Origin: a virus
IMG/VR virus record: IMGVR_UViG_3300047319_001031
Location: 1-64,000 of that record
Length of the DNA stretch: 64,000 nt
Reading direction: 5' to 3' (one strand)
Part shown: in pieces, positions 60,414-63,152 of the stretch
Layout: the number at the start of each line of letters is the position of its first letter
Position numbering within the stretch: the first letter of the stretch is position 1
The notes under the pieces: model-generated
What the model was told of the DNA's origin: nothing
Database searches by the model: none
What the model saw: only the letters and a program-made list of their open reading frames with translations
Translations under genes and position numbers: made by a program

Positions 60414-60644
60414 CTACTGCTCATACCATCCATCCAGCCCGTATTGGTGATCGAGCTGATCGGATGTAAATCGATGTGCATCGTCGCGGCAATCGCCAAA
60501 GTAATCGGCAAGGTGGTACTCACTACAACAGCCACACTCGACTACTAGGACGGGCGGACTGAACCAGCTCTGCGTGTTCGATCGCGTCCGCGACCCTGAC
60601 GTTGATCGGCACGTAGGGTAGGCGACAAAGGGTAGGAAGATCAT
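60414..60644 (-). CDS. MI-family microprotein l (long member)
   Basis: 76 codons from an ATG inside the stop of microprotein k. It begins MIFLPFV and has SGSRTRS near residues 16-22. The C-terminal half differs from the others: it is acidic and rich in aromatic residues (CCSEYHLADYFGDCRDDAH), so it could be a member fused to a different tail. Last gene of the chain. Confidence 0.45.
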   Translation of the reverse strand: MIFLPFVAYPTCRSTSGSRTRSNTQSWFSPPVLVVECGCCSEYHLADYFGDCRDDAHRFTSDQLDHQYGLDGWYEQ

Positions 60645-60796
60645 CGGCCATACCTCGGACCACGACGACCACCAGAAAAAGAAGTGAAACTTTTGACGCC
60701 GCTAATGCGCGACTTTGATGTGGAAAAGTAATATCTAAATCGTGTCGTCGTGGTAACTCCGCGCGTGTTCGTTAGCCAGAGGGGTAGGGGGATCAT
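60641..60796 (-). CDS. MI-family microprotein k
   Basis: 51 codons. Begins MIPLPLW. An alternative longer reading starts 11 codons upstream (MDKVRIENRVT) with GGAAG about 10 nt before it. The frame contains SKSRISG. Stop overlaps the next start. Confidence 0.45.
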   Translation of the reverse strand: MIPLPLWLTNTRGVTTTTRFRYYFSTSKSRISGVKSFTSFSGGRRGPRYGR

Positions 60797-60957
60797 CGTG
60801 ACCCTATTCTCGATGCGAACTTTGTCCATGGATATTTACTTCCCGAAAGCGAATAGGGCTGACCACGCAACCCAGATTCTGACCAGCCGTAGTTGCGGCT
60901 CCTACCAGTAGCCTTCGAATACGAACCACTCGTTGCCCAATAGGGTAGGGGGATCAT
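60793..60957 (-). CDS. MI-family microprotein j
   Basis: 54 codons. Begins MIPLPYW. AGGAG lies 10 nt upstream. It is Ser/Gly/Arg/Tyr-rich (ATSGSYSKATGRSRNYGW). In the alternative frame the junction reads DDPPTLLGNEWFVFEGYW and then stops after 18 codons. Confidence 0.45.
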   Translation of the reverse strand: MIPLPYWATSGSYSKATGRSRNYGWSESGLRGQPYSLSGSKYPWTKFASRIGSR

Positions 60958-61133
60958 CGCCCTCGATCTCCTGAATACGAACGATGCGAACCTTGGACTC
61001 TTGACCCGCTGTGTCGTTTGTAAAACGAACATGCACAGCCAGCACTGAGTGACCACGTACGATGCGTTGTCGGGACCATGCGTGACTTGATCGTCATCGG
61101 ATGTGCCAGCATGAAACCGGGGACGAGGATCAC
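60954..61133 (-). CDS. MI-family microprotein i
   Basis: 59 codons from a GTG overlapping the stop of microprotein h. Begins MILVPGF, with Phe in place of Trp at position 7. Contains SGSRVQGSHRS. The alternative frame is open in the second half only. Confidence 0.45.
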   Translation of the reverse strand: MILVPGFMLAHPMTIKSRMVPTTHRTWSLSAGCACSFYKRHSGSRVQGSHRSYSGDRGR

Positions 61134-61327
61134 AATGTTCTCTTTCCCGAACGGAACCACGAAGCGTAGCGCATACCACTAAGCGAGTAACACTTCGATC
61201 GGTACACGGATTCACTTGCCGTGCTGGTTATGGATACCGCACGCCCTCGGCAAGTAGACCATGCGCCTCTACCAGAAGCAGCCCAACAGAACGAAAGGTT
61301 GGACCCGTAATGGCTAAGCAGGATCAT
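61130..61327 (-). CDS. MI-family microprotein h
   Basis: 65 codons from an ATG that overlaps the stop of the zinc-HTH gene (ATGA), which ties the array to a normal gene. Begins MILLSHY, with Tyr at position 7. Cys, Ser and Trp are frequent. In the alternative frame a stop follows three codons after the junction. Confidence 0.5.
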   Translation of the reverse strand: MILLSHYGSNLSFCWAASGRGAWSTCRGRAVSITSTASESVYRSKCYSLSGMRYASWFRSGKRTL

Positions 61328-61608
61328 TGCGGCACCAGCAGCAACTGATACGGTTCCACATCCAACGCATAAGCGATCGCAGCAACAGCATCCATGCTCA
61401 CGCCGTATTCTCCGGCGAGAATGTAGCCAATGGTTCGAGCCGACACCAGCTTGCCCTTCTTGATCCCGGATAAATAGCGGGCCTGCAAACGCTTAACGCC
61501 TATGCGTTTTGCTTTCATCAGTGCCTTGATGTTGTCAGCCAGCTGGCGACGATAGTCGATCGGCATTGAACGACCACACGTTGGACAAATGTTAGCTTTG
61601 GTTTTCAC
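61324..61608 (-). CDS. Small zinc-motif HTH regulator (XRE-like)
   Basis: A 94-residue protein from a GTG in a TAGTG overlap with microprotein g. AGGGAG stands 5 nt upstream. An N-terminal CPTCG pair (about residues 8-12) is followed by an XRE-like helix-turn-helix with KLVSARTIGYILAGEYGVSM and DAVAAIAYALDVEPYQLL. It lies inside the microprotein array and is the obvious candidate to regulate it or the CRP-like sites. Confidence 0.75.
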   Translation of the reverse strand: MKTKANICPTCGRSMPIDYRRQLADNIKALMKAKRIGVKRLQARYLSGIKKGKLVSARTIGYILAGEYGVSMDAVAAIAYALDVEPYQLLLVPQ

Positions 61609-61772
61609 TATGTCTCCCTCGATTCCGATTTCCAAACGGATGCTGACCTAGATCCAAACCTTGACTTCGGTGGTGACCGATGGTCTCGTCCTGACCGTGA
61701 GTACCAGTACATCATCGTCCTTGATCGAGACCACGACCGTGCATCATCTAGCCAGCTACCGAGCAGGATCAT
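61608..61772 (-). CDS. MI-family microprotein g
   Basis: 54 codons. Begins MILLGSW. YSRSG lies near residues 24-28 (codons TCA CGG TCA GGA). GAGGG is 10 nt upstream. Its TAG overlaps the GTG start of the HTH gene (TAGTG). The alternative frame here is broken by stops four and seven codons after the junction, which favours this frame. Confidence 0.5.
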   Translation of the reverse strand: MILLGSWLDDARSWSRSRTMMYWYSRSGRDHRSPPKSRFGSRSASVWKSESRET

Positions 61773-61921
61773 GACGAGTGTGCCCTCGATGTGAACATCG
61801 ACCCCGAGCGCGATCGATTCCGTCTCTGCGTTGCCGTACCACACGACGAACTCCTGCGCCGTATTCTCTTTGCACCTGAGCGTGACTGCAATCCCAGCCG
61901 CCAGAAGGGTAGGGGGATCAT
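61769..61921 (-). CDS. MI-family microprotein f
   Basis: 50 codons. Begins MIPLPFW. Two SRSG motifs (QSRSGAK and NRSRSGS), the first with codons TCA CGC TCA GGT. The alternative frame (DPPTLLAAGIAVTLRC and onward) is well-formed and open across the unit into the next junction, so frame choice is uncertain here. Stop overlaps the next ATG. Confidence 0.4.
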   Translation of the reverse strand: MIPLPFWRLGLQSRSGAKRIRRRSSSCGTATQRRNRSRSGSMFTSRAHSS

Positions 61922-62088: not shown

Positions 62089-62228
62089 TGCACCACCGGC
62101 CACCATGACTTACGCGAGCGCCATTGCGACCACATCCGCCCAACGGAATGCGATTGCCCCAACAAGCCGGACCTCCCACGCGATCGAGAGTACCGTTTGC
62201 CCCGCCATACGGGGTGTAGCAAGATCAT
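62085..62228 (-). CDS. MI-family microprotein d
   Basis: 47 codons. Begins MILLHPVW and includes YSRSRGRSG. The A of its ATG is the last base of CRP-like copy 6, so the palindrome directly abuts the start and would control entry to this array. The alternative frame ends with a TAA before the next junction. Confidence 0.5.
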   Translation of the reverse strand: MILLHPVWRGKRYSRSRGRSGLLGQSHSVGRMWSQWRSRKSWWPVVQ

Positions 62229-62247
62229 TTGTGAGAGGTCTCACAAA
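62228..62247. promoter_or_regulatory. CRP-like palindrome, copy 6
   Basis: TTTGTGAGAGGTCTCACAAA lies between the stop of the 62251-62610 gene and the ATG of microprotein d. As an RNA it would fold into a hairpin next to the start codon. Confidence 0.65.
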
Positions 62248-62250
62248 CCG

Positions 62251-62610
62251 TTACTTCTGCACCCGCTGCAGCTTCGACACGATCTTCGCATCGACGATGC
62301 ACCCGCGGTTGACGATCACGTGGCCATCAGGGAACGGCTCGCACTCGTTGAACGTCTCGGTCTTGAGCGCATCGGCGAACCGGCCCGTGTCGGGAATCCA
62401 CGCTGCATCTTCCAGCAGCAGCTCGTGCTCGCTGATGGCGATCAGCCGGCCGACGTTGGTCATGGTGACGGTGCGAATGAAGTAGATCGCCCCGAGGCGC
62501 CACAGCCCGATGTGCTTGGGATCACTGGGGATGATCTCGGTCTGCTGCGTCAGCTTCTCAGTGATGATCGCGTCGACCTCGGCTTGGGTGTACGTCGCTT
62601 TCTTTGCCAT
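62251..62610 (-). CDS. Conserved phage protein
   Basis: A 119-residue protein of a type found in many phages. The core YFIRTVTMTNVGRLIAISEH and DAAWIPDTGRFADALK, with PFPDGHVIVNRGCIVDA, is distinctive (about residues 43-108). The ATG has AAAGGA upstream. Function unknown to me. Confidence 0.75.
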   Translation of the reverse strand: MAKKATYTQAEVDAIITEKLTQQTEIIPSDPKHIGLWRLGAIYFIRTVTMTNVGRLIAISEHELLLEDAAWIPDTGRFADALKTETFNECEPFPDGHVIVNRGCIVDAKIVSKLQRVQK

Positions 62611-62677
62611 GATATTTTTCCTTTAGTTAAGGTTGCTGCAGGCTACACGCTCGAATGAACGTGCACCCAAGAGGAAC

Positions 62678-62833
62678 CTATTGCGACCTTGCTCTCTTCA
62701 TCATCTTATTTGATTCCGATACTGACCCTGATCTCCTTCCCGTACGGCACCCGAACACTGACCACATTCGTTTCACTCCTGTTCGTGACCCAGACGCGTT
62801 GCGCCACATCTGCCACGGCGAAAATAGGATCAT
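62678..62833 (-). CDS. MI-family microprotein c
   Basis: 51 codons. Begins MILFSPW. GSRTG lies near residues 15-19. GAGGT lies 5-9 nt upstream. It ends in a TAG with no overlapping start, so this chain stops here, 67 nt before the next ATG. The alternative frame reads DDPIFAVADVAQRVWV and is open to a TAA. Confidence 0.45.
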   Translation of the reverse strand: MILFSPWQMWRNASGSRTGVKRMWSVFGCRTGRRSGSVSESNKMMKRARSQ

Positions 62834-62970
62834 CTCGACCTCGACCCACACCACGAATACACCCGTGACGCAGAGTGCGATGTATGCATGGTTGTTTTAT
62901 TGCCACGTGACCGGGACTTTATGCTCTGCCCCTTGCGATTGTGGAATTTCCACGGGTTGAACAGGATCAT
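62830..62970 (-). CDS. MI-family microprotein b
   Basis: 46 codons. Begins MILFNPW. The ATG has a strong AAAGGGAG 4-5 nt upstream, and an in-frame TGA five codons before it rules out a longer frame, so the start is the best supported in the family. SRSR motifs near 19-22 and at the end. The third codon position is richer in G+C than the second, unlike most members. Confidence 0.55.
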   Translation of the reverse strand: MILFNPWKFHNRKGQSIKSRSRGNKTTMHTSHSASRVYSWCGSRSR

Positions 62971-63152
62971 CCCACTCCCTTTTCACCACGTGACACCGAT
63001 CGTGATTTGTCCCCTGATGTTGAAGCTGGGGCAATGCGGTTGCGTGACTGGGTGAACGATCGCGCTACTTGACCGAAGCGCGACCACTCCACTGGCTTTG
63101 ACCGTGCACCTGAGCGGGACATGCGAACGTGCCAACGTTGTATCAGGATCAT
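62967..63152 (-). CDS. MI-family microprotein a
   Basis: 61 codons. First member of the largest array. Starts MILIQRW. SRSG follows at residues 12-15 (codons TCC CGC TCA GGT). TAG TAG stops just upstream confine the frame to this ATG. The family, counting 19 members, shares a start of MI[LPF][LIVFM]xP[WFY] or a close variant, high Ser/Arg/Gly/Trp content, and ATGA or GTGA overlaps. No known family is recognised. Confidence 0.5.
   Translation of the reverse strand: MILIQRWHVRMSRSGARSKPVEWSRFGQVARSFTQSRNRIAPASTSGDKSRSVSRGEKGVG

Follow-up and report, generated by a model that had tools for sequence, protein, structure and literature searches.

Chained microprotein genes of a virus and their possible kinship with serine-alternating proteins encoded behind a predicted Sm-like gene

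In eukaryotes, low-complexity Arg-Ser or Arg-Gly sequences act with Sm-type RNA machinery, as in SR proteins and the C-terminal tails of SmD1, SmD3 and SmB. To our knowledge, the pairing of an Sm protein with a basic repeat occurs only in cis and in eukaryotes. A phage Sm-like protein of putative cyanophage origin was reportedly solved earlier. Operons of small proteins and catalogued microproteins of phages have been reviewed (PMC11323111), and ATGA overlaps are described to couple translation via termination-reinitiation in bacteria and archaea (PMC6728339). The present study concerns 19 short genes, termed MI genes after their common start, in the virus record IMGVR_UViG_3300047319_001031, of which positions 1 to 64,000 were analyzed (the window, most of the 68,753-base record). 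Twelve of them form a chained array, which also includes a gene for a 119-residue protein with a predicted Sm/LSm fold (the partner). In very different phages, relatives of the partner gene are accompanied by a gene for a protein in which serine alternates with Arg, Gly or Trp (a Ser-X protein). This pairing of the partner with a Ser-X gene is well supported by the comparison of loci. We lean, by a modest degree, toward the reading that the approximately 19 MI genes are translated and are amplified, diverged Ser-X copies whose products would partner the Sm-like RNA-binding protein in the manner proposed below.

Reading frame of the MI genes

A sequence-only reading of this DNA had reported twelve frames of 46-76 codons with a common start on the - strand at 60414-63152, most of them beginning inside the previous stop. 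All twelve were found again, and 10 of their 12 starts overlap the upstream stop by 4 nucleotides (nt) as RTGA, while the starts at 63152 and 62228 lie 13 and 23 nt after a stop, respectively (Table 1; the start of each is its higher coordinate). A scan of the whole record gave 19 members, comprising these twelve, six at 49171-50788 and one at 42929, which is the least certain of the 19 and probably belongs to the set. Among all members, 17 of 19 starts share 4 nt with the upstream stop, and four of these 17 stops are those of ordinary-looking genes, namely the exonuclease-like gene, the 183- and 270-residue genes and a zinc-helix-turn-helix (zinc-HTH) gene. The last of these (PF13443, E=4.6e-4, just under the curated cut-off) had been thought to be linked to the array by its overlaps. 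It looks incidental, since the exonuclease-like gene and two unrelated genes also precede MI genes. Chains of three to six small open reading frames (ORFs) with 4-nt overlaps are found in related phages without a common start, and the overlap-chain layout by itself is not unusual. At the locus L081 (12734-13869), six small ORFs are chained, two of them with the start M[SN]EWQPI.

Several properties of the sequence give good support to MI as the frame that codes for protein and is translated. In all 19 MI genes, codon 4 has T in the middle (N-T-N), its first and third positions being close to random; codon 7 is TGG in most of them, and residues 2, 4 and 7 are conserved. Read in the MI frame, the N-T-N pattern points to an amino-acid constraint for a hydrophobic residue, whereas it would be noise in the frame one base upstream. 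The two clusters together provide 13 start-to-start intervals, and no stop interrupts the MI frame in any of them, while dinucleotide shuffles would lead one to expect 15.9 (log10 P = -7.5). The interval length is 2 mod 3 in 13 of 13, which is the phase needed for an ATGA overlap (log10 P = -6.2, a test not fully independent of the stop count).

The MI frames might instead be an artefact, shadow ORFs of a gene set that lies one base upstream. In base composition the MI bodies match a +1 shadow frame, their codon score is shadow-like as well (-0.35 per codon), and reading one base upstream gives what looks like hydrophobic, beta-rich protein. However, when codons were permuted under a fixed MI protein and fixed MI codon usage, this rival frame scored 0.031 against 0.019+-0.019 expected and had 22 stops against 23.6 expected, so that its stops are at chance level and its gene-like look is explained by the MI protein. 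With the rival-frame protein fixed, 22 stops are predicted in the MI frame and none is observed, the permuted ORFs being stop-free by definition and the non-circular stop count being that of the start-to-start intervals. The shadow-frame artefact is rejected on account of this permutation, and hardly any credence is left to it; the N-terminal motif, the chain phase and the serine alternation described below also belong to the MI frame. Judged by codon-4 constraint, open phase, permutation and serine alternation, the frames behave as the translated family that had been supposed, and comparison across phages, proposed at the same time as a check, likewise favours the MI frame. A programmed frameshift that would lead out of the MI motif to the next frame was also considered. 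It was rejected because stops in that next frame are as frequent as chance predicts and the MI frame remains open over its whole length.

The partner gene and the Ser-X genes behind it

Searches with the MI proteins against Pfam, PHROGs and PDB sequences gave no family (best E 0.03, 0.11 and 2.8, each for single members only), and the same queries found no relatives in phages or IMG/VR. The DNA of the whole array had no match in phages, and other array neighbours used as queries found no relatives. The sole chained MIPLPxW match in IMG/VR (L052) was discarded as antisense to a real gene. Since the MI proteins themselves gave no relatives, the route to the family was the 119-residue gene. The sequence-only reading had taken it for an interruption of the array; it does lie within the array, but its status as the key neighbour had been missed. 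Its relatives number 54, of which 42 are in IMG/VR and 12 in genome contigs (all metagenome bins), and it is also present in one annotated phage, MW202573. The family has the signature IRTVT...W..D.GRF. The comparative loci come from metagenomes or bins of metagenome-assembled genomes; the single exception is the annotated record, which in turn derives from an environmental sample. Several loci are fragments, and some, L113-L116 and L117-L118, are near-duplicates.

An AlphaFold model of the partner, built with 30 homologues, shows a helix at the N terminus together with a small beta barrel (mean predicted local distance difference test, pLDDT, 92.3). Its top structural match is the archaeal Sm protein 1i8f_G (Z 9.8, root-mean-square deviation 1.5, 64 residues), and the 50 structural matches listed are all Sm/LSm chains, archaeal and eukaryotic proteins being the best. 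The 119-residue protein is predicted on this basis to have an Sm/LSm fold, from which it may be expected to form a ring and bind RNA. Read by eye, V..RG.IVDA in the partner alignment resembles Sm2, and Pfam LSM is unmatched. In a viral model library, the nearest entry is the DUF6948 protein BFVD A0A6J5MA76, a weak match (E 3.9e-4, 18% identity); the DUF6948 Pfam model was matched neither by the window partner (E up to 1) nor by five homologues (E up to 0.1), and a literature search on DUF6948 found no paper. A second, diverged partner gene (MKNDWQVGAVYVVSTPTLTATGKL..., E 6e-9) is located just past the window end at 64040-64291 on the - strand (L004 6040-6291).

In phage after phage, an ORF with alternating serine is found downstream of the partner gene, for example MIAAVARAGFDGSWSRSRSRSWSGSRSWSG and MIILKANEFSRSGSWLGSRSGSWLG. 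Among the 47 loci with enough downstream sequence, the Ser-X ORF starts within -4 to +12 nt of the partner stop in 38 (-4 in 24, -1 in 5 and 0 to +12 in 9); it starts further away in 6 and is absent in 3. By a stricter scoring than that used for this count, 34 of the 42 loci retrieved with the partner contain a total of 66 Ser-X ORFs, as against 2 in one of 91 other viral loci, and that lone exception (L089) also carries a partner gene (E 4e-39). Ser-X ORFs are distributed across very different phages and most of the 12 contigs binned with bacteria or archaea. The dominant serine codon varies by locus (TCG 14, TCT 13, AGC 6, TCA 5, AGT 1). As TCN and AGY are unconnected by a single silent change, it is serine itself that is conserved. 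Readthrough of the partner stop into a (Gly-Arg)n tail was rejected because several loci have stops in between and because the corresponding stretch reads Gly-Leu in other phages. A 649 kb contig of an uncultured Isosphaeraceae (L149) carries a partner gene and a Ser-X ORF, and such a long bacterial contig allows for a prophage or a chromosomal copy.

It had been stated that no system with this layout was known. Other viral contigs do, however, have chained arrays with a common start and Ser-[Arg/Gly/Trp] bodies, and MW202573 has a single pair of partner and Ser-X gene, annotated as two hypothetical proteins; a literature search on the Sm-like/Ser-X pairing found no paper. RTGA-chained multi-copy arrays with a phage-internal common start are found in the window, L120, L112 and L121. 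L112 has six Ser-X ORFs with the start MMMIINVGTCS and its variants, and L121 has six with partly worn repeats. The largest Ser-X array seen is that of L120, with ten ORFs in two blocks (5396-6757 and 9356-9962), several with MSI[AV]IFERWVG and a few called from in-frame starts further upstream.

Behind the partner in L096-L137, the DNA consists of TCNNGG or AGCNGG hexamers in up to 48 copies, and the base before GG varies between the copies, giving a choice of Trp, Arg or Gly at each step. Such repeats raise the alternative that it is the DNA or RNA that acts, a (TCNNGG) hexamer platform binding the Sm-like protein with incidental open frames. In many loci the hexamers are near-perfect, strand-specific and directly behind the Sm-like gene, and two or three frames stay open where the copies are perfect. 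However, seven loci encode the serine by AGC or AGT, where the hexamer changes and Ser-X stays. In the window the hexamer is lost (longest run 3, with NGG in 19% of the intervening codons versus 76% elsewhere), while the alternation and the open frame persist. Starts are tied to upstream stops as well, and a repeat that works as nucleic acid seems quite unlikely.

The MI proteins and a possible ribonucleoprotein

The MI proteins contain Trp, and 18 of 19 are strongly basic with isoelectric points (pI) of 10.3-12.0. The exception is MI protein 12 (pI 4.8), which has an acidic C-terminal extension (60414-60560) unlike the other members. An SRSG motif noticed earlier is present; it forms part of a pattern of serine at every second residue, which had escaped notice. 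Over the 19 MI bodies, Ser-Ser pairs are enriched at lag 2 (z +7.6) and lag 4 (+3.9) and depleted at lag 1 (-5.5) and lag 3 (-4.6), and Ser is followed by Arg, Trp or Gly at lag 1 (z +6.8). This alternation is a statistical tendency and not a strict repeat. The first nine residues are similar within a phage (identity 0.34 in the window, 0.84 in L120, 0.34 in L112 and 0.21 in L121) and differ between phages (0.07). MI protein 4 starts 23 nt behind the partner gene. The kept alternation, the variation of serine codons, the arrays elsewhere and the within-phage similarity of starts suggest that the MI array represents amplified, diverged relatives of Ser-X genes; what is claimed is descent from, or likeness to, the Ser-X family and not typical membership.

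Several observations weigh against this assignment or against its Sm-like component. The alternation score of the MI proteins is 6-11 of 16, whereas typical Ser-X ORFs reach 13 or more, and most MI genes are not directly behind the partner but lie further along or after unrelated genes. MI codon use differs from that of the genome's genes. AlphaFold gave no confident fold for MI protein 10 (mean pLDDT 61.5). Homology between MI bodies is weak when dipeptide content is kept (mean z 0.45). The best body pair is identical at 17 of 30 positions (E 4.5e-5), and the best genome-wide match of MI protein 3 is the MI protein at 50788; pairwise body homology is not relied on because of its weakness under dipeptide shuffles. 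Finally, sequence searches (Pfam, PHROG, PDB) give the Sm assignment no support, and for this reason the Sm fold stays a prediction.

Weak body homology, a low-confidence model and end-to-end overlaps would also be compatible with MI frames that are translated spacers, keeping ribosomes on the mRNA and guarding against termination, with a product of little role. The amino-acid bias, the serine alternation and the conserved residues 2, 4 and 7 exceed what stop avoidance requires, and this possibility is regarded as highly improbable. Alternatively, the MI proteins might be independent host-takeover peptides directed to the host membrane or a host protein, their adjacency to the Sm-like gene reflecting operon history. 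They are small, basic, Trp-containing, multiplied and fast-evolving, and copies also stand behind unrelated genes. On the other hand, Ser-X ORFs are found only in loci with the Sm-like gene, in phages of very different kinds, and a pairing of such wide occurrence would not persist through operon history alone. Independent takeover peptides are thus considered rather unlikely.

We therefore return to amplified Ser-X copies acting with the partner. A Ser-X protein consists of a short N-terminal segment and a body of Ser alternating with Arg, Gly or Trp. In many unrelated phages, a single Ser-X gene is joined to the Sm-like gene by a 4-nt stop/start overlap. With ATGA overlaps coupling translation, one mRNA would yield the Sm-like and Ser-X proteins together; most likely, a ribosome finishing one ORF restarts at the overlapping ATG, and all products would be made from one mRNA. 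The N-terminal segment, which is common within a phage and different between phages, may dock on one and the same binding partner, of which the Sm-like ring is the probable candidate, and the Arg/Trp-rich body may contact RNA. The basic Arg/Ser/Gly/Trp bodies would suit contact with RNA and the conserved start would suit docking. The Sm-like and Ser-X proteins might then assemble into a small ribonucleoprotein whose target during infection is RNA of the phage or of the host.

A wider proposal, for which our confidence is short of even, is that of a widespread, undescribed phage ribonucleoprotein system, in which an Sm-fold protein is coupled at translation to a separate Ser-[Arg/Gly/Trp] dipeptide-repeat protein, a tail with its own gene, and in which some phages have multiplied this tail gene in long chains with a phage-specific docking segment. 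If it holds, diverse phages pair an Sm-like RNA-binding protein with a tailor-made Arg/Ser/Trp repeat peptide. Phage genomics would gain a new gene pair that is easy to recognise, a class of simple-repeat DNA that is readily written off as low complexity would be accounted for, and a small system would be at hand for studying disordered basic repeats acting with Sm rings. The array also illustrates that ORFs rich in Ser and Arg that look like shadows can be real genes.

Genomic setting and comparison with known systems

The ATPase, HNH gene and DNA polymerase of the virus match phage families typical of N4-like phages. Its nearest N4-like relatives, G001 and G003, have an ATPase 51% and 34% identical to that of the window phage, respectively; neither the array, the partner gene nor the second partner copy is present in them, and MI-type frames were not found there. 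A 2477-residue protein is encoded at 11996-19429 in the structural gene half; as it has no PDB match and matches only an unknown PHROG, an N4-like giant virion RNA polymerase is not recognised there. A palindrome, TTGTGAnAnnnCTCACAA, occurs at 22-39, 798-815, 55665-55682, 58824-58841, 60369-60386 and 62229-62246, where 0.25 are expected by chance. The copies at 60369 and 58824 are closely followed by a strong ribosome site and the start of a gene. The palindrome may serve as an operator or, alternatively, as a promoter of the hairpin type used by a phage RNA polymerase.

Table 1. Positions in the window of the MI genes, the partner gene and associated features
Feature	Coordinates	Strand	Remarks
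MI microprotein 1 (61 residues)	62967..63152	-	open frame, motif MILIQRW, pI 12
MI microprotein 2 (46 residues)	62830..62970	-	start overlaps stop of MI 1, 4 nt
MI microprotein 3 (51 residues)	62678..62833	-	start overlaps stop of MI 2
119-residue partner, 'IRTVT' family	62251..62610	-	has relatives; predicted Sm/LSm fold
Palindrome TTTGTGAGACCTCTCACAAA ('CRP-like copy 6')	62228..62247	.	ends at start of MI protein 4
MI microprotein 4 (47 residues)	62085..62228	-	first ORF downstream of Sm-like gene
MI microprotein 5 (56 residues)	61918..62088	-	4-nt overlap
MI microprotein 6 (50 residues)	61769..61921	-	4-nt overlap
MI microprotein 7 (54 residues)	61608..61772	-	4-nt overlap; TAG overlaps GTG of zinc-HTH gene
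Zinc-HTH gene (94 residues, GTG at 61608)	61324..61608	-	Cro/C1-type HTH; stop overlaps MI start 61327
MI microprotein 8 (65 residues)	61130..61327	-	open frame
MI microprotein 9 (59 residues, GTG start)	60954..61133	-	open frame
MI microprotein 10 (54 residues)	60793..60957	-	AlphaFold low confidence, no fold
MI microprotein 11 (51 residues)	60641..60796	-	open frame
MI microprotein 12 (76 residues), last of the chain	60414..60644	-	acidic C-terminal extension
MI microprotein 13 (47 residues)	50645..50788	-	start overlaps stop of 270-residue gene 50785-51597
MI microprotein 14 (52 residues)	50490..50648	-	open frame
MI microprotein 15 (60 residues)	50311..50493	-	open frame
MI microprotein 16 (43 residues)	49448..49579	-	start overlaps stop of 183-residue gene 49576-50127
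MI microprotein 17 (45 residues)	49314..49451	-	open frame
MI microprotein 18 (48 residues)	49171..49317	-	open frame
Probable MI microprotein 19 (54 residues)	42765..42929	-	start overlaps stop of exonuclease-like gene 42926-43597

Among known systems, the small-protein operons of phages (PMC11323111) share with the array short genes and 4-nt overlaps, while the array differs in its common start, the repetition of one family, the Ser-X-like bodies and the link to an Sm-like gene. The DUF6948 phage proteins have a weak structural match to the partner, although their Pfam model does not match it. Sm/LSm and Hfq rings resemble the partner in its predicted N-terminal helix and small beta barrel; the partner, whose fold rests on a model, differs in having no Pfam match, a signature of its own and coupling to a separate Ser-X gene. 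As in SR proteins and Sm tails, the Ser-X bodies are basic and of low complexity, with Ser or Gly alternating with Arg. In contrast to these, a Ser-X protein would be a separate phage microprotein acting in trans, with Trp, an N-terminal segment of its own and possibly many copies. By analogy, the Ser-X/Sm-like pair is like an Sm core from which the low-complexity tail was detached to become a gene by itself.

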